Source: Thalassomonas viridans (lineage in GTDB: Bacteria > Pseudomonadota > Gammaproteobacteria > Enterobacterales > Alteromonadaceae). From it: a DNA stretch of 64,000 nt. Each line of letters begins with the position of its first letter. The first letter of the stretch is position 1. Below the pieces are notes generated by a model. It was not told the DNA's origin and ran no database searches. It was given only the letters and a program-made list of their open reading frames with translations. Made by a program: the position numbers and the translations under genes. Below, piece by piece: positions 1 through 52,233 of the stretch. The stretch covers positions 6,448,001 through 6,512,000 of the forward strand of contig NZ_CP059733.1 in NCBI RefSeq assembly GCF_000948985.2, written 5' to 3'.

Positions 1-2933
1 AGCCCCATCTGCTGGCCGGATACGGCGAGTCTACCCTTGGCAAACAAAACATCGCCATCAGCGGCGGCAGCCTGACCCTTAACGGCAGCAAGGTGCCAGC
101 AAACCATAAAGTTTACTTCCTCGGCCGCGAACTACCGCTGAGCAAGCAACAGGGCTTTGTCCACCAGCAAATCCTGCCCAGCGCCGTCCATAGCGCCGAA
201 GTAGCGATATTAGATGAAAAAGGCAACGGCCAGCTGATCCGCCGCGATCTGGAACTGGCGAAAAACAGCTGGTTTTACGTCGGCCTGGCAGACATCACCT
301 TAGGCAAAAACAGCTCCGACGGCCCGGTGGAATTACTCACCGGCGATGACCACCATTACGACGGCGATCTCTTTGTCGACGGCCGCCTCGCCTTCTACAG
401 CAAAGGCAAATGGCGCGACAGGTATAAGGTAACCGCCAGTGTCGACAGCCGCGAGCAGCCGTTAAACGAACTGTTTTCCAACTTCGCCGCCAAAGACCCC
501 AACAGCCTGTTCCGACGCCTGGAGCAGGAAAACCATTACGCGGTCTATGGCGACGATTCCACCCTGGTAGAAGATGCACCGACTAAGGGCAAGTTCTACC
601 TGAAAGTGGCAGACCAATACTCCCATGCTATGTGGGGAAACTTCCATACCAAATTCGACGATACCGAGCTAACCCGTATTGAGCGGGGGTTATACGGCGG
701 ACAACTGGCCTGGAACAGCAGCGAATTCACCAGCTTCGGCCAACAGCAAAGCCAAATAGATCTGTTTGCCGCCGAGGCCGACACCAGTGCTGCCTATGAA
801 CAACACAGGGGCACGGGCGGGTCTTTATATTACCTGCAGCACCAGGATATCACCCAAGGCTCGGAGCGGGTGTCGATAGAGATCCGCGATAAAAATTCCG
901 ATCTGGTGCTAACCCGCATTCCGCTAAGCCCGGGTAGCGACTATGATATCGACTCCCTGCAGGGCCGGATTTTACTGACCAAGCCGCTGCCGTCCACCAG
1001 TGACGACGGCTTGTTGATCCGCGATGGCGGCATCTCAGGTCACCCCACTTACTTAGTGGTGAACTACGAATATGTGCCCGGCTTCGATGAACTCGACGAC
1101 TTGGCACTGGGGGGACGCGCCAGCCACTGGCTCAACGATTCCGTCAAACTGGGCTTCACCGCCAGCTCGCAGGAAGTCAGCGGTGAAAAACAAAAACTGC
1201 TGGGGCTGGATCTCACCTACCGCCATAGCGACAACAGCTACCTGAAACTAGAAGCCGCCCGCTCCGACGGCCTGGCCTTAAGCGCGCAGACTTCTGCCAA
1301 CGGCGGTTATAACTTCAACCCGATCGAAGGCGGCAACAGCCTGGTAAAAGCCGATGCCTACCGGGTGGAGTCCGCACTGGCCTTTAGCGACCTCGGCTTA
1401 AGCAGCCGGGGACTGGGGCAGTTCTACTGGCAGCAAAAAGAAGCCGGTTACCACGGCCTGAGACAGATCACACGATACGACACCGACCAAATCGGCGCCA
1501 ACCTCAGCTGGGGATTCAGTGAAGACACAAACCTGCGCCTGAAACTGGATAACCGCGAAGAAGACGGCGGCATCGACCAACTGACTGCCGAGCTTAACCT
1601 GGTCCAGCGCCTGGACGAACAGTGGCAGCTGAGCCTTGGGATACGTTCGGATGACACCAACGCCGACAACCCGAACAGCGAACCCGACAACCCGGGCAGA
1701 ACCGGCCAGAGAACCGATGTCGTATTGCAGCTGGATTACGATGCCCAAAACACCTGGTCAGCTTTTATTTTCGCCCAGGGCACAGCCGAGCACGACAACA
1801 GCCGCAACGCCAATAACCGGGTAGGTTTAGGCGGCGCTTACCAGCTCACCGACAAACTCAATCTTTCCGGTGAAATCTCCGACGGTAACTTAGGTTTCGG
1901 CAGCCAGATAGGCAGCGAATACCAGTATTCGGAAAACAGCAATGTTTATCTCAACTACCAGTTAGATCCGGACCGCAGCGACAACGGCCTGTCTGGTCGC
2001 AACGGCCAGCTGGTGAGCGGCGCCCGCCACCGCTTCAGCGACAGCACCAGCGTTTACGGTGAAGAGCGCTACCAGCACGGCAACCGCACCGGCCTGGTGC
2101 ATGCATACGGCATAGACTACACCCCGGACGATAGATGGACCTTAGGTTTAGCCATGGAAAACGGCCGTATCCGGGAAAAGGAGCAGGCGGAAGTCGAACG
2201 CGATGCCATCGCCTTTAACGGCGGTTACGCCACGCCGGCATTCAAATATGCCGGGGCACTGGAATACCGCCAGGATAAAACGGACGTTGAAAAACGCAAC
2301 TCCTGGCTGGTGCGCAACAACTTCAACTACAAAGTCAACCCCGACTGGCGCGCCCAGCTAAGGCTGGACATGGCCTTTAGCGACAGCAGCAACGGCGACA
2401 ACCTCAACAGCGACTTCACCGAGGCCCTGCTGGGCTTTGCCTACCGCCCGGTGACCAACGACAGGCTTAACGCCCTGCTAACCTATAATTTCCTCTCGGA
2501 TTTAGCACCAAGCGAGCAGTTCACCGCCAGCGGCCGCCAGCAGGATTACCAGCAGCGCAGCCATGTTTTCGCCCTTGATGCCAACTACGACATCAGCCAA
2601 CGCTGGACCCTGGGCGGCAAGTTCGCCAGCAGAACCGGTGAAATCCGCCAGGGACGGGAGACGGGCCAATGGTTTGACTCCACCGCCGAACTCTACATAG
2701 TGCGCGCCGACTGGCATGTGGTAAAAAACTGGGACTTTTTAGTGGAAGGCCGCATGCTCAAGGTAAGCGAGGCAAAAGATAAACGCTCCGGCGCTTTAAT
2801 CTCCCTGCACCGTCACCTGGGGGATAATCTCAAGCTGGGCATAGGTTTTAACTTTACCGAGTTCTCGGACGACCTTACCGATTTAGATTACGATGCTAAA
2901 GGCTGGTTTATTAATTTAGTCGGTAAAATTTAA
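1..2933 (+). CDS. Large outer-membrane beta-barrel protein, C-terminal part (5' end outside window)
   Basis: The reading frame is open from the first bases of the window, so the gene starts upstream. A GTG at 93 lies inside continuous coding sequence and is not a convincing start. About 975 residues are visible. The first ~300 resemble a folded extramembrane region. The rest is a long series of alternating-polarity, aromatic-rich strands (for example repeated Y/W-x-L-x-hydrophobic patterns up to the final GWFINLVGKI), typical of a large outer-membrane barrel. No TonB-receptor plug can be seen in the part present. Function is unknown; an export or surface role is inference. The gene ends at a strong bidirectional terminator shared with the convergent neighbour. 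Confidence 0.7.
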   Translation, partial: PHLLAGYGESTLGKQNIAISGGSLTLNGSKVPANHKVYFLGRELPLSKQQGFVHQQILPSAVHSAEVAILDEKGNGQLIRRDLELAKNSWFYVGLADITLGKNSSDGPVELLTGDDHHYDGDLFVDGRLAFYSKGKWRDRYKVTASVDSREQPLNELFSNFAAKDPNSLFRRLEQENHYAVYGDDSTLVEDAPTKGKFYLKVADQYSHAMWGNFHTKFDDTELTRIERGLYGGQLAWNSSEFTSFGQQQSQIDLFAAEADTSAAYEQHRGTGGSLYYLQHQDITQGSERVSIEIRDKNSDLVLTRIPLSPGSDYDIDSLQGRILLTKPLPSTSDDGLLIRDGGISGHPTYLVVNYEYVPGFDELDDLALGGRASHWLNDSVKLGFTASSQEVSGEKQKLLGLDLTYRHSDNSYLKLEAARSDGLALSAQTSANGGYNFNPIEGGNSLVKADAYRVESALAFSDLGLSSRGLGQFYWQQKEAGYHGLRQITRYDTDQIGANLSWGFSEDTNLRLKLDNREEDGGIDQLTAELNLVQRLDEQWQLSLGIRSDDTNADNPNSEPDNPGRTGQRTDVVLQLDYDAQNTWSAFIFAQGTAEHDNSRNANNRVGLGGAYQLTDKLNLSGEISDGNLGFGSQIGSEYQYSENSNVYLNYQLDPDRSDNGLSGRNGQLVSGARHRFSDSTSVYGEERYQHGNRTGLVHAYGIDYTPDDRWTLGLAMENGRIREKEQAEVERDAIAFNGGYATPAFKYAGALEYRQDKTDVEKRNSWLVRNNFNYKVNPDWRAQLRLDMAFSDSSNGDNLNSDFTEALLGFAYRPVTNDRLNALLTYNFLSDLAPSEQFTASGRQQDYQQRSHVFALDANYDISQRWTLGGKFASRTGEIRQGRETGQWFDSTAELYIVRADWHVVKNWDFLVEGRMLKVSEAKDKRSGALISLHRHLGDNLKLGIGFNFTEFSDDLTDLDYDAKGWFINLVGKI

Positions 2934-13350: not shown

Positions 13351-13412
13351 ATCCAGCTTCCTCCCTGCCGAGCCAACCTACAACAAACACATGATTTTAA
13401 AACAAAAATTAT

Positions 13413-13429: not shown

Positions 13430-13483
13430 ATATTCTCTGAACACTAAATCCGGTCGTTATAACTTTGCGTAAAGTCAGGTGTC

Positions 13484-13801: not shown

Positions 13802-13802
13802 T

Positions 13803-15702: not shown

Positions 15703-15720
15703 CAATAGTAGGAGTTACTT

Positions 15721-16437: not shown

Positions 16438-16447
16438 GGATAACGTT

Positions 16448-31399: not shown

Positions 31400-31990
31400 A
31401 TGAATAAATTTTATAATGTATTGTTAGCTACTTGCATCGGATTAACCGGTTGTCAAACTCTTGACTCGGTTACTCCTGTCACAGATGAAGAACTCCCGGA
31501 GACGGCAGTTTTTGACAATAAGTTGTCGTCCCTGGTCACCGGCTTGTTGAGATCGGAAAAATATGACTACCGCAACAAACCCACTTTGATCACTACCTTT
31601 GTCTGGACGGATACCCTGAGTTATAAAAACCAGCCCAATGCGTTCAGGTTTCTGGGACACCAGCTGGCGGAAAGCATGAAAACCGAACTGGTACAGTACA
31701 GCGCCAGGGTAGTGGAACATAAGGCGGCAAAAGCCGTTTCCATCTCCCCCAACGCTTCCTACTTTTTGTCCCGGGATGTCAAGGAACTCGCCAGCAAGGC
31801 CCAGGCAGAATACATCATTGCCGGCACCATCACCGAACTTGACGGCGGTGCTATGGTGAATGCCGAAGTTATAGAGATCAGCAGCAGTGAAATTGTCGGC
31901 GCGGCACGCGAGTTCTTCCCGACGTCCGCTGCCTGGTCGTCAAACAGGGTGAGCCTGCGCAACAATATGCTCCACCGTGAAGGTAAATGA
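31400..31990 (+). CDS. FlgO-family outer-membrane lipoprotein 1
   Basis: 196 residues with a lipobox (GLTGC, Cys18) and a FlgO domain: FVWTDTL, RFLGHQLAESMKTEL, AEYIIAGTITELDGGAMVNAEVIEI. FlgO with FlgP and FlgT forms outer-membrane structures of sheathed or H-ring flagella in Vibrio and relatives. It is the first gene of an apparent operon with two paralogues and dTDP-sugar genes, downstream of a sigma-54-like promoter. A role in assembling the outer-membrane part of a flagellum is inference from family. Confidence 0.75.
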   Translation: MNKFYNVLLATCIGLTGCQTLDSVTPVTDEELPETAVFDNKLSSLVTGLLRSEKYDYRNKPTLITTFVWTDTLSYKNQPNAFRFLGHQLAESMKTELVQYSARVVEHKAAKAVSISPNASYFLSRDVKELASKAQAEYIIAGTITELDGGAMVNAEVIEISSSEIVGAAREFFPTSAAWSSNRVSLRNNMLHREGK

Positions 31991-31997
31991 GGTAAAT

Positions 31998-32663
31998 ATG
32001 AAAAAGTTAATGTTGATCATGCTGGGGATTTTAGCCGGTTGCAGCAGTCAGGAGCCGCAGCTGGTGATTGAAGACCACAAGCCGAAAAAATATCAGTTTG
32101 AACCGGTAAAACACGACAAGGAAAACAATCATTCGGTGAGTTATTACGACAAGCCGCTGATCAAGAACGTCAACCATTATATTAAGTGGCTGACCCAGGA
32201 TCTGTTCGCCAATATCGACTTCCCCGATAACGATGCGGTTTTTGTGATTTCCGATCTGGCCCTGCTGGACTCGGACCTCAACAAAACCAATCATTTCGGA
32301 CGCCAGGTCACCGAGGCCATGACCCATGAAGTCAACCGTACCGGTTTCTCGGTGATCGACATCAAGGCCCGGGGTTTTATCCGCATGTCGGAGTCCGGCG
32401 ACTTGTTCTTCCAGACGGAAGATTACAATGAAATCTTAAGCCAGACCTCGGCTACCAATATTATCAGTGGCACTATGACCCGGCACAGGGGCGGTTACCT
32501 GATCAATGCCAGGGTGGTTGATCTCGCCACCACCGCCCTGATCAGTTCCGCACAGATTTTTGTGCCTTACGATGTTGTCGATGCGGTAATGCTGGAAGAC
32601 CAGGTTTCGCCGCCCCCCAAGATCAATGAGATTTCACTGAAACCTTCCTCGGTCCGGGAATAA
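31998..32663 (+). CDS. FlgO-family outer-membrane lipoprotein 2
   Basis: Start chosen at ATG 31998 after GAGG, giving a type II signal (GILAGC, Cys15) and 221 residues; a GTG at 31977 is less likely. The FlgO core is recognisable (FVISDLALLDSDLNKTNHFG, VTEAMTHEVN, ATNIISGTMTRHRGGYLINA). The spacing of 7 bp from gene 1 indicates one transcript. The C-terminal tail carries PPPK after the domain. Confidence 0.75.
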   Translation: MKKLMLIMLGILAGCSSQEPQLVIEDHKPKKYQFEPVKHDKENNHSVSYYDKPLIKNVNHYIKWLTQDLFANIDFPDNDAVFVISDLALLDSDLNKTNHFGRQVTEAMTHEVNRTGFSVIDIKARGFIRMSESGDLFFQTEDYNEILSQTSATNIISGTMTRHRGGYLINARVVDLATTALISSAQIFVPYDVVDAVMLEDQVSPPPKINEISLKPSSVRE

Positions 32664-32687
32664 CCTTTCACAGCAGTAAAAAGAGAG

Positions 32688-33320
32688 ATGATGATGAACT
32701 TAATTACTAAGACTCAAAAAACCTTGCAGACGCTGACCTTAAGTGTTTTTGCTGTTGCCGCCCTAACCTCTTGCACCCTGCTTAAGGAAATCCAGCAAGA
32801 TGCGACCGGTGAGGGCAAAGAGCCGGAATTAACCGATGAATCCGTGCCCTTTGTCCTTAACGAGCAGGAAGTGATCCCGTTTTTCCATACCCATAAAATG
32901 GTCAGGGATTATACCGACAAGCTCGCCCACGACCTGTTCAATAACATGGTGCGCACCGAGCTGAAATCGCCGGTGGCGGTAGCCAGCTTTGTCAGTTTCG
33001 ACTCCTCGCTGGAAGAAGGCAACCGCCTGGGCAACCTGATCAGCGAAAGCCTGCTGGGGCAGGTACAGGAATACGGTATCCCGGTAATGGACATACATTT
33101 AATGAACGGTATCGAAATGACCAGCGACGGCGAGTTTTCTTTTAGCCGGAAAATGACTAAGATAATGAATTCGAAGACATTAAATTATGTATTATCCGGC
33201 GTTGTGATCGGCAATGAAAGGGGTTATACCGTCAATGCCAGGATCATAGAGTTTGGCTCTATGCAGGTATTGTCGACGGCAAGCACCTTTATTCCGTCCT
33301 TTGTCGCCGAAGTTTTATAA
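32688..33320 (+). CDS. FlgO-family outer-membrane lipoprotein 3
   Basis: About 210 residues; three successive ATGs at 32688-32696 make the exact start uncertain. It has a lipobox ALTSC (Cys29 from the first ATG). The FlgO core is visible as [32 protein letters not shown] and [20 protein letters not shown]. Three divergent FlgO paralogues in a row suggest a hetero-oligomeric ring component set (inference). It is followed by rmlB after 14 bp. Confidence 0.75.
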
Positions 33321-34342: not shown

Positions 34343-34382
34343 GCTATATAATCATCAATATAAGTTTTTAAAAGGCAATAAA

Positions 34383-37085: not shown

Positions 37086-37124
37086 CTTTGCTGCCTTATC
37101 AGGCTCCCGGCACGAGAGCGTGAA

Positions 37125-37691: not shown

Positions 37692-37700
37692 GGTAACCTC

Positions 37701-39661: not shown

Positions 39662-39675
39662 TTACCACCTTAAAA

Positions 39676-40398: not shown

Positions 40399-40484
40399 TT
40401 TAAATCCATAGCCATATATACCCGTTAGTTTCTCTTACTTTCTAAGCCAGAGACATGCCAACTTTTACCCCTTAGGCGGTTTGC

Positions 40485-41186
40485 TCACAGCAGGCGGTAG
40501 CGGGGCAATAAATCCCGTATTTCCTGCGCAGAGTTAAACATTAACACATCGATAATAGATAAACAGGGGACAAAACCCTGCCCGAACTGCCGGTAGCGGA
40601 TGGGATCTGTCTGCAAAAAATTCAGGGAAATGCCGTGTTCGCCGAAATGGTTTTTATCGTATAACTCCAGACCGCCAATAGGATTGATATACTGAGTCGC
40701 CTGCAGTTGCCGGCATATATCAATAACCTTATCCTGTGCTTTCAGGGCCTGGATGTCCGGTAAACTTGAGCTGATAACCAGGGACGTTTTTATGTCCAGG
40801 TAGCTTAAAACCGATGTAAGCGAATTCAGGATAAAGCCGAATAAATTATTTTCCCGGCACGCCATGATCTCCCGGATCAGGGGGAAAGCATCATCAAAGT
40901 AAGGCGCCTTACGGTAGCTTTCGGCCAGGCGGTTCAGCAGTTTGACTTTGTCCCGCTGCCAGCCCTCGGCCAGAAAACGCTGGTTGACAAAAAGATAATC
41001 GGAGGCTTTTTTTAACGGCAAAGAAATAAAGGCATCTTTACCGTTTTGCAAAATCCGGTTCCGGTTTATCCAGCCTTGTTTGCTGTATTGGATTTCATCG
41101 TAAATGACAAATTTGTCAACAGCGGCAAGCAACTGAAAATAGCCGATATAAGGCATAAAATAAGGCTGCATAATTGCTATTTTCAT
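40485..41186 (-). CDS. WbqC-family protein
   Basis: A 233-residue protein with the WbqC family N terminus IMQPYFMPYIGYFQL and VIYDEIQYSKQGWINRNRI. WbqC-like proteins occur in O-antigen and flagellin glycan clusters that use 4-amino-4,6-dideoxy sugars. Their activity is not firmly known, and an acyl or aminoacyl transfer role has been suggested by context. Presence here supports the Qui4N-type assignment. Confidence 0.82.
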   Translation of the reverse strand: MKIAIMQPYFMPYIGYFQLLAAVDKFVIYDEIQYSKQGWINRNRILQNGKDAFISLPLKKASDYLFVNQRFLAEGWQRDKVKLLNRLAESYRKAPYFDDAFPLIREIMACRENNLFGFILNSLTSVLSYLDIKTSLVISSSLPDIQALKAQDKVIDICRQLQATQYINPIGGLELYDKNHFGEHGISLNFLQTDPIRYRQFGQGFVPCLSIIDVLMFNSAQEIRDLLPRYRLL

Positions 41187-41256: not shown

Positions 41257-43134
41257 TCAGCTTTTCAGTGCCGTTTCAAACAACAGGTTGGTTGCCTGGG
41301 AGTACTTGTCCATATCCATGCTAAAGATTCTCTTAAAGCACTGCTTGGCCAGCATTTTCTCATACAGGCTTTTCCGCTCTTGCTCATTGTCTATCAGGTT
41401 GACGGCTTTTTTCACCAGCTCGGCAACGGAATCACAACCCAGCTCGTCCAGCATGTCGACCGTATCCCAGATACAGGCATCCGTTCGGGTGTACAGGTGC
41501 TGGTGACCTTTGATGAACAGCTTGGGCTTGTTCAGGACAATGGCATCGGTATTACTGTTTGCCCCGCCAAAAGGCAAAGTAGGTATTAACAGGTGTGCCT
41601 TGCTGATAACCTTCATATAATCGATATAATGGCTGAAACTCACCAGTTCAAAGGATTTCAGCATCTTGCCAAGCTGGCGTTTAGTGGACAGATAAGCCAG
41701 GTGATTATCCTCATGGCCGGAAAAGAACACAAAGGTGACTTTTTTCGATGCTTTCATCTGAATTTGCCTGCAGACATCAATCACGGGATAAGTCACTTTG
41801 GTCATAATACCGTTAATGGCAATCTTGATTTCGTCGCCGTCCTCCAGGAAATGATTATGGGAGGCAATAAACTCATCGGTCAGATCCGGATGAATGGTAT
41901 GCAATACCATGTCTTTGGTGGGAGCATCCACCATAACGATTTTTTCGGTGAAATAAGGCTGCAAGTCTTCCGCCGAGTAGGTGTTGCCCACCACCATGCA
42001 GGCATCGATTTCCGGGCTGTAGCTGCTCGAAGGATGTCCCCCCATCATCAGCTGTTTCGGCGCCAGGCGTAACTGGCTCAGGCATATGGTCCACAGCGCC
42101 ATGCCGATCGACGGATAGAAGATAATATCCGGGGCTTCCGCCGCCACTAAGGCGGCATTGGTATTGACATCATAATCATCTTCGATTTCTACCACCTTGG
42201 AAAAGACGTCCAGGGCATTGTCTTCTACCTTGGGCGGCTCAATAAAAGCAACCAGTTCATATTTTTCCGCCAGCTCGATAAAGAAGCGGTTATATGAACG
42301 GAACATGGCATGGCTTTCCGAATAGGACTCCAGCAAAACGGCAACTTTCATCTTAGGCTTATGTTCAAAAGCCGGCAACCCGGCCATATATTGCTTTACA
42401 TCATCCGATAACCAGTTGGGCAGATTATGCCGCACTAAGGCCGTCAACCACTTTTTAAACTGGTATTTATCCGCGGAACTGGCGTAGCTACAGGCAAAAT
42501 AACAGTATGACAGCTTACCTAAATCGGCAATCACCGGCAGGTCCAGCACCGGCAAGTCCTTAGCCGACTCCAGCAGGTAATTGAAGCCGTCATTGGTTTC
42601 TTTGGTAAGCCCCGGGATCGCCTGTGTCACCAGGGAGATATAGGTGGTTAATGCCATGGCCGGCGACGCCTGGAACACGTCTTTCCAGGGCAGGCGTATC
42701 TTGCTCGGTAAACCGATCAGCATTAACAACAGCGTCAACTGCTTTTCATTAAACTTAATCCGGCCATATTTATCCGCTTTATACAAACCTAAGTGGTCGA
42801 TTAAGGCATCGGTATTATTCCAGATGCTGGCAGAGAACACCCAGTCGATGGCCATCTTGAAAATCAGGAAAGTGTCAACAAACCCGGGAGAGGGTTTGTA
42901 CCTGGGGGCACTGAATAACTCGGTGATCAAAGAAGCAAATTGATTGCAAAAAGTATACATGACTTCTTCTTTTCCCGGGCCCGCCTGCGGCTGCATCGGG
43001 TTCACCGCAGCCTGGACCATTAAACCGCTGTTGTTGAGCACGGTATCCCGGATAAACTCGGCAATATCCTGCTCGGCCGCCCGAAAATTCTGACTTCTGA
43101 TGTTTTGCGCAATTTGTTGTGTGTTTAAATTCAT
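41257..43134 (-). CDS. HMW1C/GT41-like protein glycosyltransferase
   Basis: Start chosen at ATG 43134, giving 625 residues (MNLNTQQIAQN); 41 upstream codons lack coding character. Residues ~1-280 are helical. The rest forms a GT-B pair with VAVLLESYSESHAMFRSYNR, a GHPSSSYSPEIDACMV block, KVTFVFFSGHEDNH, and the donor-site region IPTLPFGGANSNTDAIVLN followed by FIKGHQHLYTRTDACI. The order and motifs resemble HMW1C/O-GlcNAc-transferase-type enzymes that modify proteins in the cytoplasm. As the only glycosyltransferase in the island, it is the best candidate to attach the modified sugar to flagellin or another surface protein (inference). Confidence 0.75.
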   Translation of the reverse strand: MNLNTQQIAQNIRSQNFRAAEQDIAEFIRDTVLNNSGLMVQAAVNPMQPQAGPGKEEVMYTFCNQFASLITELFSAPRYKPSPGFVDTFLIFKMAIDWVFSASIWNNTDALIDHLGLYKADKYGRIKFNEKQLTLLLMLIGLPSKIRLPWKDVFQASPAMALTTYISLVTQAIPGLTKETNDGFNYLLESAKDLPVLDLPVIADLGKLSYCYFACSYASSADKYQFKKWLTALVRHNLPNWLSDDVKQYMAGLPAFEHKPKMKVAVLLESYSESHAMFRSYNRFFIELAEKYELVAFIEPPKVEDNALDVFSKVVEIEDDYDVNTNAALVAAEAPDIIFYPSIGMALWTICLSQLRLAPKQLMMGGHPSSSYSPEIDACMVVGNTYSAEDLQPYFTEKIVMVDAPTKDMVLHTIHPDLTDEFIASHNHFLEDGDEIKIAINGIMTKVTYPVIDVCRQIQMKASKKVTFVFFSGHEDNHLAYLSTKRQLGKMLKSFELVSFSHYIDYMKVISKAHLLIPTLPFGGANSNTDAIVLNKPKLFIKGHQHLYTRTDACIWDTVDMLDELGCDSVAELVKKAVNLIDNEQERKSLYEKMLAKQCFKRIFSMDMDKYSQATNLLFETALKS

Positions 43135-43289
43135 ACTAGGTAGCCATGATTTCTGAAAAATTTCTTTGCCCTGATTTCGCTGAGAACCGGTATCTGGCCA
43201 GGGCAAGCTGGGGTTAGTAACGCCATATTCACTTAACCGCTCAATGCCAGCAGGCAAAAGTGACCGGCAGTCGGGAGCCGCTAAATATG

Positions 43290-44024
43290 TTAGCTGCCGG
43301 ATAATTCCGACAACGGCTGCCCTTTATATTCGGTAGGAATACACTGGGTGCCTAATGCCTTTAACCGGCTGCATACTTCATCCGCCTGGAAGCTGTCGGA
43401 AAACTTACCGGCTTTAACCCGGTAAAAAGTATTCTGCTTAATGCTGATTTTTTCAAAAATCGCCTTCAGCTTACCCAGGATGGCCGGGTGCTTATGCTGC
43501 AGCCGGTACCAGGTGGGCCTGACCTGTTGCTGGTTTGATAAGGAATAAAGCTGCAAGGTATAGGCGGGGCCTGTGCCCGTTGTTTGCACTACAGGCTCTG
43601 ATGCCGGCTTGGCTGTCGGCTTAGCTGCCGGCGTTGGCTCGGCTGTTTTAGTAACTTGCGGTCGAGGTTGGGCATTTACTGCCGGCGCCGGTGCCGCTGC
43701 AACCGTATCCTGGCGCTGCGTTTGCGCAGCGGCCTGCTGTTTTGCCGTTTCATTTTCGCTGATAATGGTATTGAGCTGATCGATGAGTTCCGTCAGCTCA
43801 CCTTCGATGGCCACCAGGCGCTCAATGCCGGGTTTGATATCCTGCCATTCGTGTAAATGCTCTTCAAATTTCGGAATAGTAGCGGCGGCCGGCTGCTGTA
43901 CCCGCTGGGGACCGGCATTTTCCAGGGGAGCCGCTTCAGGTTCATCCTGCATCATAGTGCAGCCCGACAAGCCTGTCAGCAGGCTGCAACAAATGGATAA
44001 GGTCAAGAATAAATTTTTGTTCAT
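43290..44024 (-). CDS. SPOR-domain lipoprotein 1 of the pilus locus
   Basis: 244 residues: type II signal with lipobox GLSGC (Cys22), a helical segment (about 60-95), a Pro/Ala/Thr-rich linker, then a C-terminal SPOR domain (about 155-235) with YTLQLYSLSN, FYRVKAGKFSD and paired cysteines (VCSRLKALGTQC). SPOR domains bind denuded peptidoglycan. Encoded 41 bp after the usher, itself ending in a SPOR-like domain. A paralogue lies at 51261. It probably anchors the pilus assembly platform to the cell wall (inference). Confidence 0.78.
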   Translation of the reverse strand: MNKNLFLTLSICCSLLTGLSGCTMMQDEPEAAPLENAGPQRVQQPAAATIPKFEEHLHEWQDIKPGIERLVAIEGELTELIDQLNTIISENETAKQQAAAQTQRQDTVAAAPAPAVNAQPRPQVTKTAEPTPAAKPTAKPASEPVVQTTGTGPAYTLQLYSLSNQQQVRPTWYRLQHKHPAILGKLKAIFEKISIKQNTFYRVKAGKFSDSFQADEVCSRLKALGTQCIPTEYKGQPLSELSGS

Positions 44025-44065
44025 TTGAGTATTACCATTTTGATCATGATTATCATCCTACACGG

Positions 44066-47000
44066 CTAGAAACTGAATTCATACGGCTGCACCGTGCAAT
44101 TGATGTCTAACTGGCTGGTTTTTTCACAAGCCTGCTCCGCCTGTTCGCTTTCCTGGTAAAACGCCAGGTTCAACTGATATTTTTGACTGGTTTCGTCATA
44201 GATAAAAAAGGCCGGTTGCTTTAAAAGACGGCGATAACGTTTTTGCAATAAATACCAGTAAGTTTTCAAAATATCCAAAGAGGTAAAAGAGCCGACGCTG
44301 ACCACATAACCGGCGGTAAATTCCAGCTGATCCAGGGTAAAATCAGAACCGTTGATAACATCTCCCTGGGCCGTCAGGTTAATGGCCAGTTCATCCGCTT
44401 CATGAAGTTTTTTCCGTTCGATATAACCGGGATCTACCGCTGCCCGGTAGTTGCCCGGCCGTAAATCGGTAAACAGGTAATAACCATCGTATTCGGTTTC
44501 CGTGGTCGCCACTATCTTGTCGTTTTCATCCAGCAAGTTAATGGTGACATAAGGCGCGGCCTGCTCTTCCCCTTTGCTGTTACGGATATACACTGTGCCT
44601 TCCACCTCACTGGAGGTTACCACAGGGAAATCAAGACGGTCGACAAAACCCCGGCGCGGGGTAATAGAGACGCCCTCAAACCCGGGGATCAGGAAAGGAT
44701 CGTCCAGACTGCCTTCTTTAAGTTCGATATCTGTAGTGATATTCGTCGGCATGTTTTGCAGCATGGCCACGCCTTGTTCGTCCGTCTCTGCCTGACGCCG
44801 GTTTTGCACCCCTTTAACTTTAGCGCCTTCCACCAGCGGCTCTCCTTCATCGAAACGGCCGTTGGCATTTAAATCTTCAAAAACCCTGACAATCAGGGCG
44901 CCACTGTGGGTAAGGGGCCTGGAAGTGACAAAGTAGTCATCCCTGTCGGTTTCATAACCCAGGCTAAAGCGCAGGAATAATCCCAATGTCCAGTCACCCT
45001 GCTGGTCATAACCTATGTTGCCGGTTAAGTTAAAGGCATCCTGTTTCCAGTTCAGCCCCAACTGGCTGCGGTAATTATCGAGTTCCGGGAAATATTCCAG
45101 CTCGAATTCCGATTGCAGGTGATCAGTCAACGCCCAGCTGACTTCAGAACTTATCCGGGAAATTTCCGCTTCCGGATCTATGGTGTAGTCGGTTTCCAGC
45201 CGGGTAAAATACTTGCCAAAGGAACGCTGTATCCGGGCCTGGCCACTGAGAGTCTGGCTATCGCTGTCGATACCGCTAGGATTTTCAATGTCTTGCCAGA
45301 ACAAGGCATTACTGATCGAGGTTTTATGGGTGTTGATACTGATCTGGTTAGAAAAGTTATTCACTTTTTGCCCGTTACGCTCTTCGGTAATACGGAACTG
45401 GTTCTGGTAATTGATCGGCAAACCTATATCACGCAATATATGCCCCGACATACGGAAGAAATGCTCGCTGCGATCCCCTAAATTGTTATCGCCGCCGCTA
45501 CCGGCAAAATTATCCTCGCGATAACTGTAGTCAAAGGAATGTGCGCCGATACCGGTTTTTGCCGACAAGCGCAAACTATAGTTTTCGTCCTGATCATACT
45601 GGATATTGGTATCTAACAGCAGGCGTTCAAATAAGGTCATATTGGCGCCCAGGGTATAGTCAAACTGGTTATCTCCCTCTTCGGCGATCAAGCTCGAATG
45701 TCCCAGGGAAAAAGACAACCAGTCGGTAACCCCCTGGTTATAACGGGCGGCCAGTAACCAGCCCTCTTCATCGTCGGCTGAGTTATTTGACACGCCAAAT
45801 AAGGATTTACCGGTTTGTGTCAGGGACACCCCGTAAGAAGATGAAAGCCCCTTCAAACTGTTTTGATTGATGAAGACTTCCCGGGTGCTTTTTTCCACCT
45901 GCCCCTGGGGGCCGTACAACACCATTTCGAAGATATTGTTACCAAAAACCAGGTCGACGTCGTTAAATTCATAACGGCCGCTTTGCAAACTGATTTGCCG
46001 GTCGATCAATATGCCGTTGCGGTAAAGTTCCACATCCCAACCCGGCTGGATGTCGCCATTGATATTGATCTTGTTGTTGACAATATTGCCGATCACGCCA
46101 CTGGAAAGCGAGAATCCCCGGCTAAGACTGGCGTTGTAATCGATGCCTGTATTAATAGGTGAAATATCGCCAAACTGGTAGCTGGTGAGATCCAATGGCC
46201 CCAGCAGGCCCCCTTCGGGAGATTCTTTGGATAACTTCCAGCGTAGGTCGGTGACTGCATCCCCCTTAATACCACTCATAAAATACTGGCTGTTTAAATA
46301 AGCCAGGTCATGGCTGCCCAATACCGAATAACTGTGGAAGCTATCGTCTTTGGTCAGGCGGCTGTTCAGCTGGACATCAAACAAAGGGGTGGAAAATGCC
46401 CGGTAGCTGTTCTCTTTCCAGGGCAAAACCGGGTAACTGGTTTCCTGGGTATAAACCTGGCGCTTTTCCCGCTCCAGGCGTTGCTCAATCGGTAAAGGCT
46501 GTTTCGAGGTCACCACCATGGTCAGGTTATTAAAGTCAAATTCCATATTGGTGCCGAACCAGTAATTGATCACATCGGCATCAACATAAAGATCATCTTC
46601 CTCTATGCTGTAGGTGTCCGCAGCCAGGGGGATAGATTCACCGTTAACTATGGCCCGGGGTGATGTTTCCGGGTTAAAGGTAAGCTCAAATGAATTATCT
46701 TCACTGATAAACCAACCGGCGGCCGTTTGTTTGTCCAGATCCACCTCGATAGGAAAATCCAGCACCTCAAACAAATTGCTTAAACTGATACGGGCATTGG
46801 CCTGATTTTTATAGGCAAAAACATCTGACAAATAATATTTTGCCACGTAAATCCCCAGCAGGAGTTCTTCTCCGATCGGAATACCTATGTCCTCGTCTGA
46901 ACCGGGATCTGTTTCGGGTACTTGGGTATCGGCTACGGGGATTTCCGGCGCGTCGGCAGCTGCTGCAGCTTCGGCGGATGCCGCTATGGCTTGTACGGCG

Positions 47001-47164
47001 GCTGTCTCAACCTGTCTGGCACGGAGAGTTCCAGATTTTTGTTGGATCTTTTTAATAAGATTAATAAAACGACTGTCAGTCAAAGCCCGGGGCTCTGCAG
47101 CATAGGCGGCAGTATGCAGGCAAGACAGGCAGAGAAATACACTAACTAACAGTCGCTTCATCAT
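44066..47164 (-). CDS. Usher-like outer-membrane protein with Ig-like inserts and C-terminal SPOR-like domain
   Basis: A 1032-residue protein with signal peptide (about 1-22), an acidic Ala/Pro linker, an N-terminal domain, then a barrel with usher hallmarks (DVELYRNGILIDRQISLQSG, FNDVDLVFGNNIFEMVLYGPQG). Two SdrD/carboxypeptidase-regulatory-like Ig domains follow (about 755-830, FEDLNANGRFDEGEPLVEGA; and 840-920). The last ~95 residues look like SPOR (YVVSVGSFTS ... YQLNLAFYQESEQAEQACEK ... C). It lies 15 bp downstream of the chaperone gene. An usher fused to a peptidoglycan-binding domain is unusual. Confidence 0.78.
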   Translation of the reverse strand: MMKRLLVSVFLCLSCLHTAAYAAEPRALTDSRFINLIKKIQQKSGTLRARQVETAAVQAIAASAEAAAAADAPEIPVADTQVPETDPGSDEDIGIPIGEELLLGIYVAKYYLSDVFAYKNQANARISLSNLFEVLDFPIEVDLDKQTAAGWFISEDNSFELTFNPETSPRAIVNGESIPLAADTYSIEEDDLYVDADVINYWFGTNMEFDFNNLTMVVTSKQPLPIEQRLEREKRQVYTQETSYPVLPWKENSYRAFSTPLFDVQLNSRLTKDDSFHSYSVLGSHDLAYLNSQYFMSGIKGDAVTDLRWKLSKESPEGGLLGPLDLTSYQFGDISPINTGIDYNASLSRGFSLSSGVIGNIVNNKININGDIQPGWDVELYRNGILIDRQISLQSGRYEFNDVDLVFGNNIFEMVLYGPQGQVEKSTREVFINQNSLKGLSSSYGVSLTQTGKSLFGVSNNSADDEEGWLLAARYNQGVTDWLSFSLGHSSLIAEEGDNQFDYTLGANMTLFERLLLDTNIQYDQDENYSLRLSAKTGIGAHSFDYSYREDNFAGSGGDNNLGDRSEHFFRMSGHILRDIGLPINYQNQFRITEERNGQKVNNFSNQISINTHKTSISNALFWQDIENPSGIDSDSQTLSGQARIQRSFGKYFTRLETDYTIDPEAEISRISSEVSWALTDHLQSEFELEYFPELDNYRSQLGLNWKQDAFNLTGNIGYDQQGDWTLGLFLRFSLGYETDRDDYFVTSRPLTHSGALIVRVFEDLNANGRFDEGEPLVEGAKVKGVQNRRQAETDEQGVAMLQNMPTNITTDIELKEGSLDDPFLIPGFEGVSITPRRGFVDRLDFPVVTSSEVEGTVYIRNSKGEEQAAPYVTINLLDENDKIVATTETEYDGYYLFTDLRPGNYRAAVDPGYIERKKLHEADELAINLTAQGDVINGSDFTLDQLEFTAGYVVSVGSFTSLDILKTYWYLLQKRYRRLLKQPAFFIYDETSQKYQLNLAFYQESEQAEQACEKTSQLDINCTVQPYEFSF

Positions 47165-47179
47165 ATCGGAATACCGCAG

Positions 47180-48022
47180 TTAATTTTGAGATTTTATTTT
47201 TATATTGCTCAAAGGAACATCAAAAGTTCTTTCTGCCATCACGGTATTACGCATCTCCTGTCTGCCCTCGTAGGCAACCCTGAGGGTGCCGGCTTCCGGG
47301 CGGTATTTTAACCAGTGAAGAGTATAATATTGGTGATCTAACTCGGGATAAAAATTAACTGAATTTAGTATCGCCACCTGCCGCTCTTTATCACTGCCTC
47401 TGGGAGTCCAGTAAGCCACAATACTGCCGTAAGTACTGGTACTGCCGGTGCGGTTTAATTTAACGGCAACCTCGGCCTGTTGCTTGGCAACATTATGGAA
47501 CACCTGTACATCATCGACCGCGACCTGGGCATTCAGTGCCCCCTGACGGAACATCACAGGAATACTGTAGCTGAGGGAAAGTTTCAGTACTATGCCGGAG
47601 GTAGGCTCAGGGCCGGTATTTCTTTCCGGCAGAGCGGTAAACAGCAAATGAGATCTGTATTCACCATCTTGTAAATTCTTCGGCCGACGGGCGGCAACCT
47701 TGATGATTTGTCTTTCATTGGGAGCCAGGGTAACTTGCTTGGGACTTATCCTGTACATATTACTGGCGATGGGGAAGTTCTTCGCTTCCTCGTCAGTCAG
47801 GTTTTTATATCCTCCTTGCGGTAAAGCGGACTTTTGCACCCATTCCATCCGGTAGGTACGGGTGACATCACCGGTATTCATCAATACCACTTTACCTGAA
47901 CGGGTACGCTCATCAAGAACAACCCGCATCGGGGATATCAATAAACTCGCCTGCGCGAGGAAGCTTTGTATAAATAACAGGGCTATGATGACTTTTGTCA
48001 ATTTTATGACCGATGCTTTCAT
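47180..48022 (-). CDS. PapD-like periplasmic pilus chaperone
   Basis: 280 residues with a signal peptide and two Ig-like domains. Marks of fimbrial chaperones are visible: LLISPMRVVLDERTRSGKVVLMNTGD near the N terminus, KQVTLAPNERQIIKVAAR at the end of domain 1, and SLSYSIPVMFRQG at the hinge. It should donate a strand to DUF4402 subunits in the periplasm and deliver them to the usher. The type is closer to alternative or archaic chaperones than to FimC (inference). Confidence 0.83.
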   Translation of the reverse strand: MKASVIKLTKVIIALLFIQSFLAQASLLISPMRVVLDERTRSGKVVLMNTGDVTRTYRMEWVQKSALPQGGYKNLTDEEAKNFPIASNMYRISPKQVTLAPNERQIIKVAARRPKNLQDGEYRSHLLFTALPERNTGPEPTSGIVLKLSLSYSIPVMFRQGALNAQVAVDDVQVFHNVAKQQAEVAVKLNRTGSTSTYGSIVAYWTPRGSDKERQVAILNSVNFYPELDHQYYTLHWLKYRPEAGTLRVAYEGRQEMRNTVMAERTFDVPLSNIKIKSQN

Positions 48023-48137
48023 GATTCTTCTCTTTACCTATAAATACAAATAATACGGGTTAAATCTTTTATGATTACCGCCATTACCTGAAACTGCTTT
48101 TAATGGATGAATTACCAACAAGCCTAGCTGTAACTAT

Positions 48138-48611
48138 CTAATAATTAAAGGTTAGTTGCAAGCTCGCCCGATATTGCACATCTACATAACTACCGCCATT
48201 ACCTGAGGTACGCAATGTGCCACCGATTTTGATAGATGCATATCCTGTGCCATCAGTAGTCACTGAAGGGGCAGTATCCACACTTACCAGGGTAAATTGT
48301 TCGGTAGGGGCAGGATCAACCGTAGTCGTGGTCATTTGCGTGACACTGGCAGAGGTAAAGACTTGCACATTGCCGGGTAAGTCCGTCAGTACAAACTCGG
48401 CGGGATTCCCGGGGTCTATCACCCGAATATGATTAATGATGGTGGTTTGGCCGTTTTGGCTGATGGTGATATCACTGGCCACCGAATTGTCTAATACAGC
48501 AATAGTGCCGAAAGACAGAGGTTCAATCAGTGTTATGGTCGCACTGGCGGGAAATGCCAGTAAGAAGAGAAGGAGAAGGTTAGTTTTTTTCGTTAACAAA
48601 GCAGATAACAT
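48138..48611 (-). CDS. DUF4402 pilus subunit, minor
   Basis: 157 residues with a signal peptide and the DUF4402 pattern: an N-terminal strand leading into LSFGTIAV, SGN-type loops and a C-terminal YRASLQLTFNY strand. DUF4402 proteins are Ig-like exported subunits seen with chaperone-usher genes. It is downstream of the larger DUF4402 gene across a 14-bp-stem hairpin, so it is probably made at a lower level, as expected of a minor or tip subunit (inference). Confidence 0.75.
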   Translation of the reverse strand: MLSALLTKKTNLLLLFLLAFPASATITLIEPLSFGTIAVLDNSVASDITISQNGQTTIINHIRVIDPGNPAEFVLTDLPGNVQVFTSASVTQMTTTTVDPAPTEQFTLVSVDTAPSVTTDGTGYASIKIGGTLRTSGNGGSYVDVQYRASLQLTFNY

Positions 48612-48617
48612 AATTGA

Positions 48618-48660
48618 AACTAATATAATCAGGGAGAGTGACTCCTTGATTATATTAGTT
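48618..48660 (-). promoter_or_regulatory. Strong intercistronic hairpin in the pilus operon
   Basis: A perfect 14-bp stem AACTAATATAATCA / TGATTATATTAGTT with a 15-nt loop lies between the two DUF4402 genes. No U-run follows on the minus strand. It probably stabilises the upstream major-subunit mRNA or attenuates read-through. Confidence 0.65.
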
Positions 48661-48683
48661 ATTATTAATTAATCAACGGATAA

Positions 48684-49286
48684 TTAATAATCAACCGTCA
48701 TGGTATAGTTACCCGTATAAGCGGCGTCTATATAGGCCGACGTCGTCACCGTAGCATCGGTCTTCAATGACGTACCGGCATCAAAACTTACCGTTCCCGC
48801 AACATCGGTTTGCAGGTTACCACCGGCATAAGCAACACCATCATTGGCACCACCACGGATAATTGCAGTCCAGTCGGCCTGTAGAATATCGAAGTTAGGT
48901 GATCCCGGAGGAGCAGCGGCCGCAGTTAACTCGAAGTCAGCCGGGAAAGTGATGGTCAGGTTGGTGAAAGGTGCAGCGTTAGTGACAGTAAATTGACCCA
49001 CAGAACCTGCAGCTAATTGCGTCATACTGGAGTTAGCTACGGCAGTGGTACTTGTCGTACCGTCGGCAGCCAATACTAAGGTACCGATATTAACACCACC
49101 TGTAGGATCAGCGGTCGCACGAACCGTACCAAACGACAGGGCCGTATCTTCGGTCAGGGTAAAGGTATTTTGAACCGTTACCGAAACTGTCGAAGGAGCT
49201 GTTGCAGCAAAAGACTGCGCAGACACTGCGGTTAAAAAAGTAGCTGTTAATACCTTTGTTATCCGATTGTGATTTAAATTAAGCAT
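48684..49286 (-). CDS. DUF4402 pilus subunit, major candidate
   Basis: 200 residues with a signal peptide cut near AQSFAA. The body is Thr/Ala-rich and strand-rich with TLTEDTALSFGTVRATADP, GQFTVTNAAPFTNLTITFP and a C-terminal TGNYTMTVDY, characteristic of DUF4402. First gene of the minus-strand pilus unit, followed by a stabilising hairpin, hence probably the major shaft subunit. A GGAGATTTTT ribosome-binding site precedes the ATG. Confidence 0.78.
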   Translation of the reverse strand: MLNLNHNRITKVLTATFLTAVSAQSFAATAPSTVSVTVQNTFTLTEDTALSFGTVRATADPTGGVNIGTLVLAADGTTSTTAVANSSMTQLAAGSVGQFTVTNAAPFTNLTITFPADFELTAAAAPPGSPNFDILQADWTAIIRGGANDGVAYAGGNLQTDVAGTVSFDAGTSLKTDATVTTSAYIDAAYTGNYTMTVDY

Positions 49287-50025
49287 AAAAATCTCCGTTG
49301 TTCATCTGTAAAATCGATAGTAATGTGACACTAAAATACAGAGGCATAAGCAACTCTTTTTTTGTGACGCAAAATTTGTATCGACAGTAATAAAAAAACC
49401 TTTAATATTTTTTTTTACTTACATTGGTATTTAAGCATAGTCGTCGGACATAAATATTTGTAGTTCAACATGTTAATTAAATCAGCACATTGATTACGCA
49501 TATTACTATCTGAGCATTTTATAACTTATGAATAACAATTATCCTTAAGCTCCATTACCTTCCATTAAAGTTTTATTCATAATATTGCTCGATTTCCCTA
49601 ATCTTTAAGATTACAACTTAGACACTTAAAAAATAAAGTAAAACCTAATATCATCAACTTTTCATAGCAAGATCATTAAAGCAGGTGGCATGCCAAAAAA
49701 ACAAATGATCTTTAACTCACATCCGTAGTTTTGGTTTATTACAGGTAATTCAGTGACTTAACAAACAAAATTAAATGCTAATAAATTTTAAACATCCTGT
49801 TTATCACTAAGTTTAGTCAAATCCCGGTAAATAGCCTGCAATATATGGGCAATAAAGAGGCAATAATTTACCCGGTTGTTTGCCCCGGGGGTCTTTTTTT
49901 GCCGCTTTGGCGGCAAAGGATCCTTGCCGGATCTTTCTTCGATCCCAAAAAGGATCGCTTAGATCCTTTTAGACCCTTCCTGGATAGCAGCCAAAGGCAA
50001 ACAAGACCGCCAAGCACTTTTAATA
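49287..50025. other. AT-rich regulatory region and structured palindromic block before IS630
   Basis: A 740-bp gap with no supported gene. The right half of the pilus promoter region is very AT-rich, as usual for fimbrial operons. A 22-bp sequence at 49767-49788 is repeated exactly inside the IS630 element at 50059-50080. Positions 49890-50008 hold nested palindromes: TTTGCCGC-TTTG-GCGGCAAA, GGATC-TTTCTTC-GATCC and AAAGGATC...GATCCTTT, enclosed by GGTCTT...AAGACC. Confidence 0.5.
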
Positions 50026-50066
50026 CCAATCGGCATAAATATATGATCTAATATGGTTAAAATTAA

Positions 50067-50573
50067 ATGCTAATAAATTTAATCATGCATCAATTAGAGA
50101 CTATAGACTTCAAATCCTTGGCAAGACATGAAAAAAATGCGCAGAAGCGAATCCGGCTTTTGGCATTAGCACATTTTAAAGAGGGCATGAATAGAACCGA
50201 GATATCGAAATTACTGAAGGTAAGCCGCACCAGCGTCAACAAATGGGTTGCAGGTTTCTTATCTCAGGGGGTAGATGGGTTATCCGCCAAGCCTCAACCG
50301 GGAAGGCCGCCATTATTATCAACTGAACAATTACAACAAATAGCTAAGTTAGTTGAGCAGGAAGCAAATAAGGACAGTGGTGGGCGTTTAAAAGGAAGTG
50401 ATATCAATGAGTTTATCAAGCAGGAGTTTGGTGTCATATATGAGCCTTCTCATGTATATCGTTTGCTCAAGAAAATGGGCTTCTCCTGGATAACGAGTCG
50501 CTCTAAACACCCTAAACAATCAGACCAGGTACAGGAATCTTTTAAAAAACTTCCAGTTGTCAACGATCCTTAA
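50067..50573 (+). CDS. IS630 transposase, N-terminal helix-turn-helix part
   Basis: 168 residues; initiation could also be at ATG 50085. It contains a helix-turn-helix (MNRTEISKLLKVSRTSVNKW, residues ~38-57) and the Pro-rich GRPPLL linker, ending after SFKKLPVVNDP where the frame closes. The catalytic part continues in a different frame, so this is either the first half of a recoded transposase or a frameshifted relic. Confidence 0.8.
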   Translation: MLINLIMHQLETIDFKSLARHEKNAQKRIRLLALAHFKEGMNRTEISKLLKVSRTSVNKWVAGFLSQGVDGLSAKPQPGRPPLLSTEQLQQIAKLVEQEANKDSGGRLKGSDINEFIKQEFGVIYEPSHVYRLLKKMGFSWITSRSKHPKQSDQVQESFKKLPVVNDP

Positions 50574-51120
50574 CGTTCCTGGGCACATCTCTCTGGATAA
50601 AGTTGATGTTTGGTTTCAAGACGAAGCACGATTCGGTCAACAAAATACAACAACTCGGCTATGGGCAAGGACAGGCACTCGACCTAGAGCTATAAAACAA
50701 CAACAATTCGAATATGTGTACCTATTCGGTGCTGTATGTCCTGCCACAGGCGCAACAGAGGCCGTGATAGCCCCTTGCGTAAACCAAGAAGTCATGAGCC
50801 ACCATCTTGCTCAAATATCCCAAAGAACACCTCCGGGTCGTTATGCTGTAGTGCTCATGGATGGTGCCAGTTGGCATACCGCTAGCGTTGCAAACCAATT
50901 CGATAATCTCAATATACTGAAACTACCGCCGTACTCTCCAGAATTAAATCCTATAGAACAGGTATGGCAATGGCTACGGCAAAATGAATTAGCCAATCAA
51001 TGTTTTGCTGGATATGAAGATATCGTTAACAAGCTGACATCAGCATGGAATAACTTCATCAGAGATGAGCAAATGGTAAAAGGGGTATGTAGTCGAGACT
51101 GGATTGAATTGAACAGTTAA
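50557..51120 (+). CDS. IS630 transposase, C-terminal DDE part
   Basis: 187 residues if started at the TTG; the frame is open from about 50494, an 80-nt overlap with the first part. It carries the DDE domain: VWFQDEARFGQ (first D), VVLMDGASWHT (second D), LPPYSPELNPIEQVWQWLR (E). It lies in the +1 frame relative to the upstream part. The overlap contains TTTAAAAAAC, where loss of one A would join the halves as FKN. Confidence 0.8.
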   Translation: MSTILNVPGHISLDKVDVWFQDEARFGQQNTTTRLWARTGTRPRAIKQQQFEYVYLFGAVCPATGATEAVIAPCVNQEVMSHHLAQISQRTPPGRYAVVLMDGASWHTASVANQFDNLNILKLPPYSPELNPIEQVWQWLRQNELANQCFAGYEDIVNKLTSAWNNFIRDEQMVKGVCSRDWIELNS

Positions 51121-51136
51121 TTATGCCGATTGGTAT

Positions 51137-51260
51137 AAACAAAGAAAACTGAACAAAGGAGGAGGCATTGCTGCCTTAACTAACAGTTAAACCTGCTGCA
51201 ATAATAAAGAAAAGATATTCAGATGATCCGACTCCCGGCCAGACGGGAGCCGGTAAAGTT
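51137..51260. other. Right flank of IS630 with a hairpin
   Basis: The CTCCCG-GCCAGA-CGGGAG hairpin downstream (minus sense) of SPOR lipoprotein 2 lacks a U-run. It may be its terminator. No gene. Confidence 0.35.
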
Positions 51261-52001
51261 TTAACTGACAGGTGTACCGGAATATTTGATCACGGCGCAA
51301 TATTGGTTCTGCTGTTTAAGACGCTTACAAATTTGGTGTGCCTTGGTTGCCGAAGAATAGGGACCAACCCTTAAACTCTGAAACGTACCCTCTTCCCTGA
51401 CAATCGCCTCCAGTAAAGGTTCTTTATTCAGCAGTACAGAGCCATATTTTTGTTTAAAGTAATTCCACCCCAACCTGGCATTGGCTTCGGTTCTAAATGC
51501 CGCCAGATGGATCCCCACCTGAACCTTGCAATGACTGTTTTTTGACATGCTGAAAGTACTGGCGGCGGCACAGCCAGGATGAACAGCCTTTTTCTTTGCT
51601 GCCACTTCTTCAGCGGCAGGCCCGGTATTATTTTCTGCCTGCGCCGCTAATTCTGCCTGTTTTCTTGCCGCCCTGGCTTCTGCCGATTCTTTTTGTTTGG
51701 CCAGCTGCTCCAGCGGCCCAGTACCCAGGTTTGCCGCCTTACCCAGCTCCGCCACCAACAGCTGCATGTCAGATTCCAAAGCCAGCAACCTTTCAATTTC
51801 AGGTGCCAACGGCGCCCAAACATCAATATGGCTGTTTAGCTGTTCATGTATGGCTTCCTTGGTGATCTCCTGCTCTTCCCCTTCAGCCTGCGGCTGGGTG
51901 GCACAGGAAAATAACAGGGAACTGCCTAACAGAACAGCCAGGGGACGAAAATACACAGTCCGGTATTTAGAAAAAGATAAATGCTGAAAAGGCGCTGGCA
52001 T
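51261..52001 (-). CDS. SPOR-domain lipoprotein 2 of the pilus locus
   Basis: Start taken at ATG 52001, giving 246 residues with a long type II signal (SSLLFSC, Cys33). A helical region includes LAPEIERLLALESDMQLL, matching IKPGIERLVAIEGELTEL of the first SPOR lipoprotein. A charged Ala/Lys/Glu segment and a SPOR domain (about 165-246) follow, with VQVGIHLAAF, FQSLRVGPYSS and ICKRLKQQNQYC. The two lipoproteins flank the subunit-chaperone-usher genes, which supports their belonging to one system. Confidence 0.75.
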   Translation of the reverse strand: MPAPFQHLSFSKYRTVYFRPLAVLLGSSLLFSCATQPQAEGEEQEITKEAIHEQLNSHIDVWAPLAPEIERLLALESDMQLLVAELGKAANLGTGPLEQLAKQKESAEARAARKQAELAAQAENNTGPAAEEVAAKKKAVHPGCAAASTFSMSKNSHCKVQVGIHLAAFRTEANARLGWNYFKQKYGSVLLNKEPLLEAIVREEGTFQSLRVGPYSSATKAHQICKRLKQQNQYCAVIKYSGTPVS

Positions 52002-52233
52002 ATCGACACTCGCTGCGTTAATTATCAAAAACCTAAACAAGCTATGCTTGTTTTACTCTATCGTTTAGCTATAAAGCAAAGATCATGCTAACACTATATT
52101 TCCCCATACTGCATACATGACCGGCGGCCCTATAACCAGTATAAATCAAGGCCAGTCCCGGCAATAGCCGCCGGCATGGAAATAATGTTATCAGCCTTAC
52201 TCCCCGTGGACGACAAGTATTTGACTCATAGAA

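Follow-up and report, generated by a model that had tools for sequence, protein, structure and literature searches.

Classical ushers such as FimD and PapC possess an N-terminal domain, a beta barrel with a plug-like insert and two C-terminal domains, and they adjoin a PapD-like chaperone. To our knowledge, neither wall anchoring nor the choice of a site has been established for these ushers, and we know of no SPOR part in the archaic (Csu) or alternative (ECP, CFA/I) ushers. Elsewhere, wall binding is built into the outer-membrane pore itself, as with the AMIN domain of PilQ and the LysM domain of intimin-type proteins. No description of an usher with a SPOR domain was found among the papers listed by searches of the open-licence PMC literature. 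Here we analyze a window of 64,000 nucleotides of the Thalassomonas viridans contig NZ_CP059733.1, to which the positions below refer, in which six genes, all on the minus strand (43290-52040), are transcribed in the order lipoprotein B, subunit 1, subunit 2, chaperone, usher and lipoprotein A. The locus resembles the classical systems in the predicted layout of its usher and in the adjoining chaperone, but differs from them by the absence of the family PF00577, by DUF4402-type subunits, by a SPOR tail past the second C-terminal domain of the usher and by SPOR lipoproteins. As in the archaic and alternative pathways, which the accessible text of PMC4654587 presents as non-classical, there is little sequence likeness to the classical one. 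The fold of the tail is that of RlpA, DedD, DamX and CwlC, and the A-type lipoproteins keep the glycan-contacting Gln of RlpA; here, however, SPOR belongs to an usher or to proteins encoded beside it, has a Cys pair and has mostly lost this Gln in the usher tail, whereas the AMIN and LysM parts mentioned above have another fold and belong to another export pathway. The whole suggests that this gene set, which is one of marine bacteria, makes a pilus machine anchored to the cell wall.

The usher, single copy in the 7.9 Mb genome, shares 89% identity with a protein of Thalassomonas haliotis annotated as "sporulation protein". By its sequence it falls outside PF00577: this family has no match in the genome at its curated cut-off, no usher family occurs among the Pfam rows of 32 usher homologues, and the distant relative L121 reaches PF00577 at 0.0021, below the cut-off. 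A sequence search of the PDB found no usher either, and a single-sequence scan of genome contigs found no relative. The first fold matches of the structural model are FimD and PapC. In VIA, which with the whole model mainly tests residues 249-849, residues 259..735 lie on FimD 3ohn and PapC 2vqi, and one row, FimD 3rfz_E, covers residues 101..946 at a root mean square deviation of 11.9. The model is in agreement with the complete FimD/PapC layout, and the predicted fold together with the partners, among them PapD_N in the chaperone, makes the locus a chaperone-usher system, as the original prediction had proposed. The Ig-like "inserts" of that prediction are ordinary usher C-terminal domains, since they align with those of FimD; the second contains an SdrD_B match (residues 867-910). 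The piece beyond the ordinary layout is the last ~83 residues.

The assignment of these residues to SPOR rests on several lines of evidence. The usher tail of the window has no Pfam SPOR (PF05036) match and is absent from the eight SPOR places found in the genome, which, taken to the letter, is the outcome that the original prediction had named as refuting it. We consider this result overruled by stronger tests. Pfam SPOR matches 10 of the 32 usher homologues at E ≤ 0.1, and PF05036 is precomputed on 6/120 among the database matches listed for the usher. Modelled alone (68 sequences), the tail has a predicted local distance difference test score (pLDDT) of 88.0 and the order strand-helix-strand-strand-helix-strand; its VIA rows are led by 6ozd (10.2; an exported protein whose matching domain was not identified), CwlC (8.3), RlpA (7.4), DedD (6.8), RlpA with glycan (6.7) and DamX (6.2), the next being at 4.4. 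Foldseek also places CwlC first, with a weak E-value of 5.5e-3. The profile of 103 usher tails aligned by hhalign with that of the C-termini of the 110 lipoproteins, out of 133, that exceed 100 bits, at 98.4% probability, with an E-value of 8.6e-15 over 88 columns. A Cys pair is present in 103/103 usher tails and in all A-type (70/70) and B-type (40/40) lipoproteins, the two types being assigned by profile and not by position, while five of the six other SPOR proteins of the genome are without such a pair; the remaining one, L008, has matches to the pattern, of which one is situated just behind the SPOR stretch. The predicted structure and the homologues thus give the usher tail a SPOR fold.

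Whether this design is shared was examined in 81 loci, which are the window and the best 80 of 334 encoding stretches from a profile scan of genome contigs. A Cys-paired usher tail occurs in 80/81 loci, and the score of the tail with the tail profile is above 20 bits in 76/81. The two lipoproteins of the window are, as predicted, paralogous (BLASTP 3.7e-17) and each has a Pfam SPOR domain (Table 1). Scanning with lipoprotein profiles gave 133 labelled genes, spread over 79 loci; among these genes Pfam at E ≤ 0.001 gives 110 SPOR and 6 FlgO matches, and a simple lipobox pattern matches 108. A SPOR profile that is not independent of this lipoprotein set, which supplied part of its sequences, accepts 124 of the 133 genes, in 78/81 loci (one gene in 40 loci, two in 30 and three in 8). 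The nine genes outside the 124 comprise six FlgO proteins, L061 (13.3 bits), L077 (14.2 bits) and a 144-residue open reading frame (ORF) of L043. Three loci lack an accepted SPOR lipoprotein: L089, which is also without the usher tail, L066, which has a contig edge upstream, and L061, a borderline case. All labelled genes considered, they stand upstream in 49 loci, downstream in 67 and on both sides in 37. The association of a SPOR usher with SPOR lipoproteins is conserved, and the survey of homologous loci bears out the original prediction on this point.

In a survey of the class, 36/369 genomes match at E ≤ 0.001, 25 of the 36 over short stretches only, and in a survey of the phylum 13/398 match at E ≤ 1e-20. 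Twenty-two relatives besides the genome of the window were examined by a whole-genome SPOR scan and ORF lists: L142 and L143 resemble the main group, six (L120, L121, L123 and L151-L153) have a SPOR usher with no SPOR lipoprotein nearby, and 13 lack SPOR both on the usher and among the genes of the available flank. L124 was left out of the SPOR-less count as its usher runs off the contig, L122 and L127 have little flank, and in L120 the SPOR sits in an ORF beside a masked stretch. Another SPOR gene, unlike the usher-linked lipoproteins and presumably DedD-like, is located 7 kb away in the L153 genome. The usher of L123 (7611-11225) is a distant one with two SPOR domains on long linkers, and those of L151 (7929-11573), L152 (6996-10532) and L153 (7065-10640) have a SPOR domain and a SPOR-like repeat, also on long linkers. 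A single gain of the SPOR tail is unsupported, the SPOR ushers forming no one split in a tree made by FastTree only (L129, with its usher in pieces, was omitted): L151-L153 group with the SPOR-less L122 (0.904), L120, L121, L123 and L124 stand beside the main clade (0.966), and the SPOR-less L089 lies inside it (1.0). The L089 usher (8824-11586) has no SPOR tail and its locus no SPOR lipoprotein; either tail and lipoprotein were both lost, or this locus had a history of its own.

The residues in contact with glycan differ between the SPOR domains of the unit. In the RlpA-glycan structure, the side-chain contacts described in the accessible text of PMC6895207 come from the highly conserved Gln270 and three Arg, and most other contacts are main-chain. 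Residues 19..95 of the usher tail model align on RlpA 266..341 in VIA, and if no gap is placed in the first strand, S956 would take the place of Gln270 and F960 that of F274; the usher of the window thus has Ser at the glycan-contacting position. Among usher tails, Gln is found in 4/103 and Arg or Lys at 997 or 999 in 13/103. The A-type lipoproteins have Gln in 68/70, Arg in 56/70 and Lys or Arg at the next position in 67/70, and in the six lone SPOR ushers Gln is present in every first SPOR. This loss of Gln in most usher tails, as opposed to its presence in A-type lipoproteins and lone SPOR ushers, is new. On these residues we do not class the usher tail as a glycan-binding SPOR domain, and of the three SPOR anchors originally predicted, the three SPOR-type domains stand, whereas the usher tail has lost most glycan-contact side chains and the B type keeps them only in part.

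Neighbouring FlgO-family genes could provide a further link to the envelope. In Vibrio flagella FlgO belongs to the H ring, with FlgP and FlgT as other ring proteins in the accessible text of PMC6375700 and PMC6504787; FlgO-family genes adjoin 50/81 loci (137 genes) and FlgT-like genes 20, Pfam confirming examples, and any ring role would here be putative. They occur near the loci in two or three copies and several arrangements (L010-L089). Same-strand FlgO genes at most 150 bp from a gene of the unit occur in 37 loci; in 30 of these they follow the usher or lipoprotein A, in the other 7 they precede a lipoprotein-profile gene, and in six of these 7 (L016-L019, L043 and L059) the partner has no SPOR. 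In each of these six loci, one protein combines the lipoprotein N-terminal motif with a FlgO domain at its C terminus, which makes it look as though SPOR and FlgO could replace each other on this motif. These six long proteins of the lipoprotein set were also considered as FlgO-SPOR fusions, which was rejected, Pfam giving FlgO and no SPOR; their common part with the lipoproteins is the N-terminal motif. FlgO neighbours are also seen at L151-L153, and FlgT-like ones at L120, L121 and L123. The genome has no FlgO match besides the three genes of the window, which stand ~10 kb beyond lipoprotein A, past sugar and glycosyltransferase genes and near flagellar genes, two FlgT genes being elsewhere in the genome. 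FlgO had no match in 5 of the 24 genomes searched (hosts of L023, L053, L070, L072 and L080), where the unit is present, which speaks against an obligatory role of FlgO, and a flagellar reason for the neighbourhood is conceivable.

Taken together, these data lead us to propose a chaperone-usher pilus whose outer-membrane platform is clamped to peptidoglycan, a scheme to which, as a whole, we give an even chance, wall anchoring as such being likely. The chaperone would hand DUF4402-type subunits to the usher, which would export them and whose SPOR-fold tail, with its invariant Cys pair, sits behind the second C-terminal domain. The lipoproteins encoded beside it each have a lipid anchor, the conserved motif near the N terminus, a linker and a SPOR domain with a Cys pair, and these SPOR domains, chiefly those of the A type with Gln and basic residues, would read denuded glycan. 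Most simply, where the lipoproteins read the wall, the usher tail would have been released from this task and would serve as a dock, holding usher and lipoproteins together at the wall. It is from aligned residues that we infer which SPOR reads the wall. If A acts like known SPOR domains, sites of recent division would be favored; septal placement is a conjecture drawn only from SPOR behavior elsewhere. Several observations weigh against this division of labor. The B-type lipoproteins have Gln in only 12/40 and His in 25/40, the B of the window having His; Gln is kept in the usher tails P0052, P0069, P0113 and P0116 and in that of L142 despite its SPOR lipoproteins; Phe 960, at the RlpA F274 place, is present in 103/103 usher tails; the lone SPOR ushers are few, six from about three lineages; and loss of Gln need not abolish binding, because RlpA holds glycan largely by main-chain contacts, as far as the accessible text of PMC6895207 describes them. 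The invariant Phe and the main-chain contacts could favor an usher SPOR that itself binds denuded glycan through them, the lipoproteins adding avidity. The SPOR fold of the tail and the existence of lone SPOR ushers with Gln kept agree with such an anchoring, which is possible but which we doubt: an equal part for all three domains is weakened by the residue counts, the usher tails having so rarely the Gln and basic residues that the A type keeps.

It may also be that SPOR is here a pure protein-protein module, the lipoproteins being pilotin-like and inserting or gating the usher through SPOR-SPOR contacts, with wall binding immaterial. The same Cys-paired SPOR type in usher and lipoproteins and the lost glycan residues of the usher are in agreement with this, but the A type keeps glycan-contact residues that pure docking would not need, and we judge it unlikely. 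A partnership of the unit with outer-membrane ring proteins of the FlgO type, the pilus being beside or within a collar like the flagellar H ring, would account for the frequent close, same-strand FlgO genes, the motif-FlgO proteins and the FlgO or FlgT-like neighbours of the lone SPOR ushers. The genomes with the unit and no FlgO match, others with FlgO away from the unit, and the distance of the FlgO genes of the window, near flagellar genes, argue against it, and with FlgO belonging to the Vibrio H ring (in the text accessible of PMC6375700 and PMC6504787) an ordinary synteny with motility genes is conceivable; on its own we find this explanation improbable. Combined with the clamped platform, it would give a pilus in a wall-bound outer-membrane collar made of a docking-SPOR usher, glycan-reading lipoproteins and FlgO ring proteins borrowed from the H ring or common to both. 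This combination is quite tentative and somewhat unlikely; if true, pili would be placed at chosen wall sites, for example new poles or beside flagella. Finally, a chance neighbourhood with a chance fold resemblance could invoke the tail missed by Pfam SPOR in the window and the weak Foldseek E-value, but is already contradicted by the data and hardly deserves credence. The conserved SPOR usher and SPOR lipoproteins, with naturally SPOR-less relatives, make the wall anchoring and the placement of ushers directly testable, as well as the split between glycan reading and docking by SPOR domains in an apparent pilus setting, and suggest a role for proteins named "sporulation protein", "SPOR domain-containing" or "SdrD B-like" in databases.

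The coordinates of the unit and of related features are collected in Table 1. Two DUF4402 subunits had been predicted: Pfam confirms subunit 2, while for subunit 1 it gives nothing at E ≤ 0.001 (a Gp5_C row at 0.57 being at chance level), and the naming of subunit 1 as DUF4402 rests on distant homology, as it is found by the profile made from the family of subunit 2. Completion of the subunits by donor-strand exchange could at most be predicted from the one DUF4402 match. The chaperone gene is present in 80/81 loci, and a sequence search of the PDB with the chaperone gave no match. The original prediction had a compact operon flanked by lipoproteins; all six genes are on one strand, but lipoprotein B is separated from subunit 1 by opposite-strand transposase-like ORFs (50067-51120) and ~0.8 kb without a listed ORF.

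Table 1. Features of the pilus unit and of FlgO-family genes (positions in the window unless a locus label is given)
Feature	Position	Strand	Remarks
SPOR lipoprotein A	43290..44024	-	244 residues; lipobox-like LSGC, conserved W-x3-KP-x3-RL motif region, linker, SPOR
Lipoprotein A SPOR domain, residues 153-229	43338..43568	-	Pfam PF05036 8.5e-10; genome scan; Gln and basic glycan-contact residues
Usher	44066..47164	-	1,032 residues; single copy in genome; model pLDDT 85.7; FimD/PapC matches
Usher SPOR-fold tail (predicted), residues 949-1031, C1013 and C1023	44072..44320	-	Model, Pfam matches of homologues, hhalign
Usher Ig-like C-terminal domains, residues ~755-834 and ~841-946	44327..44902	-	Pfam, model, VIA
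Usher beta barrel (predicted), residues ~261-738, 24-25 strands; probable plug-like insert ~358-422	44951..46384	-	Strand list of model, VIA
Usher N-terminal periplasmic domain, residues ~100-220	46505..46867	-	Model; putative assignment
PapD-like periplasmic chaperone	47180..48022	-	280 residues; PapD_N PF00345 4.4e-7
Subunit 2, DUF4402	48138..48611	-	157 residues; PF14352 6.5e-9
Inverted repeat of 19 pairs between the two subunit genes	48618..48660		Putative function
Subunit 1, diverged relative of subunit 2	48684..49286	-	200 residues; profile match 6.7e-8
SPOR lipoprotein B	51261..52040	-	At most 259 residues; listed start TTG, later start possible; lipobox-like LFSC
Lipoprotein B SPOR domain, residues 177-252	51285..51512	-	PF05036 7e-8; His at Gln position
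Three FlgO-family genes	31400..33320	+	196, 228 and 210 residues; PF17680 1.5e-31, 2.3e-31 and 2.2e-37; possible component, uncertain
Motif-FlgO proteins	L016:5604-6722, L017:5537-6628, L018:5607-6683, L019:5342-6436, L043:5135-6562, L059:4920-6239		

The inverted repeat between the subunit genes possibly controls the subunit ratio; terminator-like sites are overall near chance (12 found for 10.1 expected), and promoter-like sites are at chance level in the scan of the locus (15 found for 16.7 expected). The transposase between lipoprotein B and subunit 1, which we take to be IS630-like, consists of two overlapping ORFs with short inverted repeats on both sides, ending in TA-rich sequence, and another transposase ORF is found at 53037-54173. 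The stretch from the FlgO genes to the pilus unit (33335-41186) contains genes for a sugar-nucleotide dehydratase, a nucleotidyl transferase, a DegT aminotransferase and WbqC, with two glycosidase-like genes and two methyltransferases. A set of flagellar genes (two flagellins, FliD, FliK, FliL, a sigma factor, MotA and MotB), presumably a lateral-flagella cluster, is located at 6624-18342. Adjoining lipoprotein A, an HMW1C-like glycosyltransferase gene (41257-43257; HMW1C_N 3.3e-47), a neighbour found in 5/81 loci, makes glycosylation of a pilin or adhesin possible.

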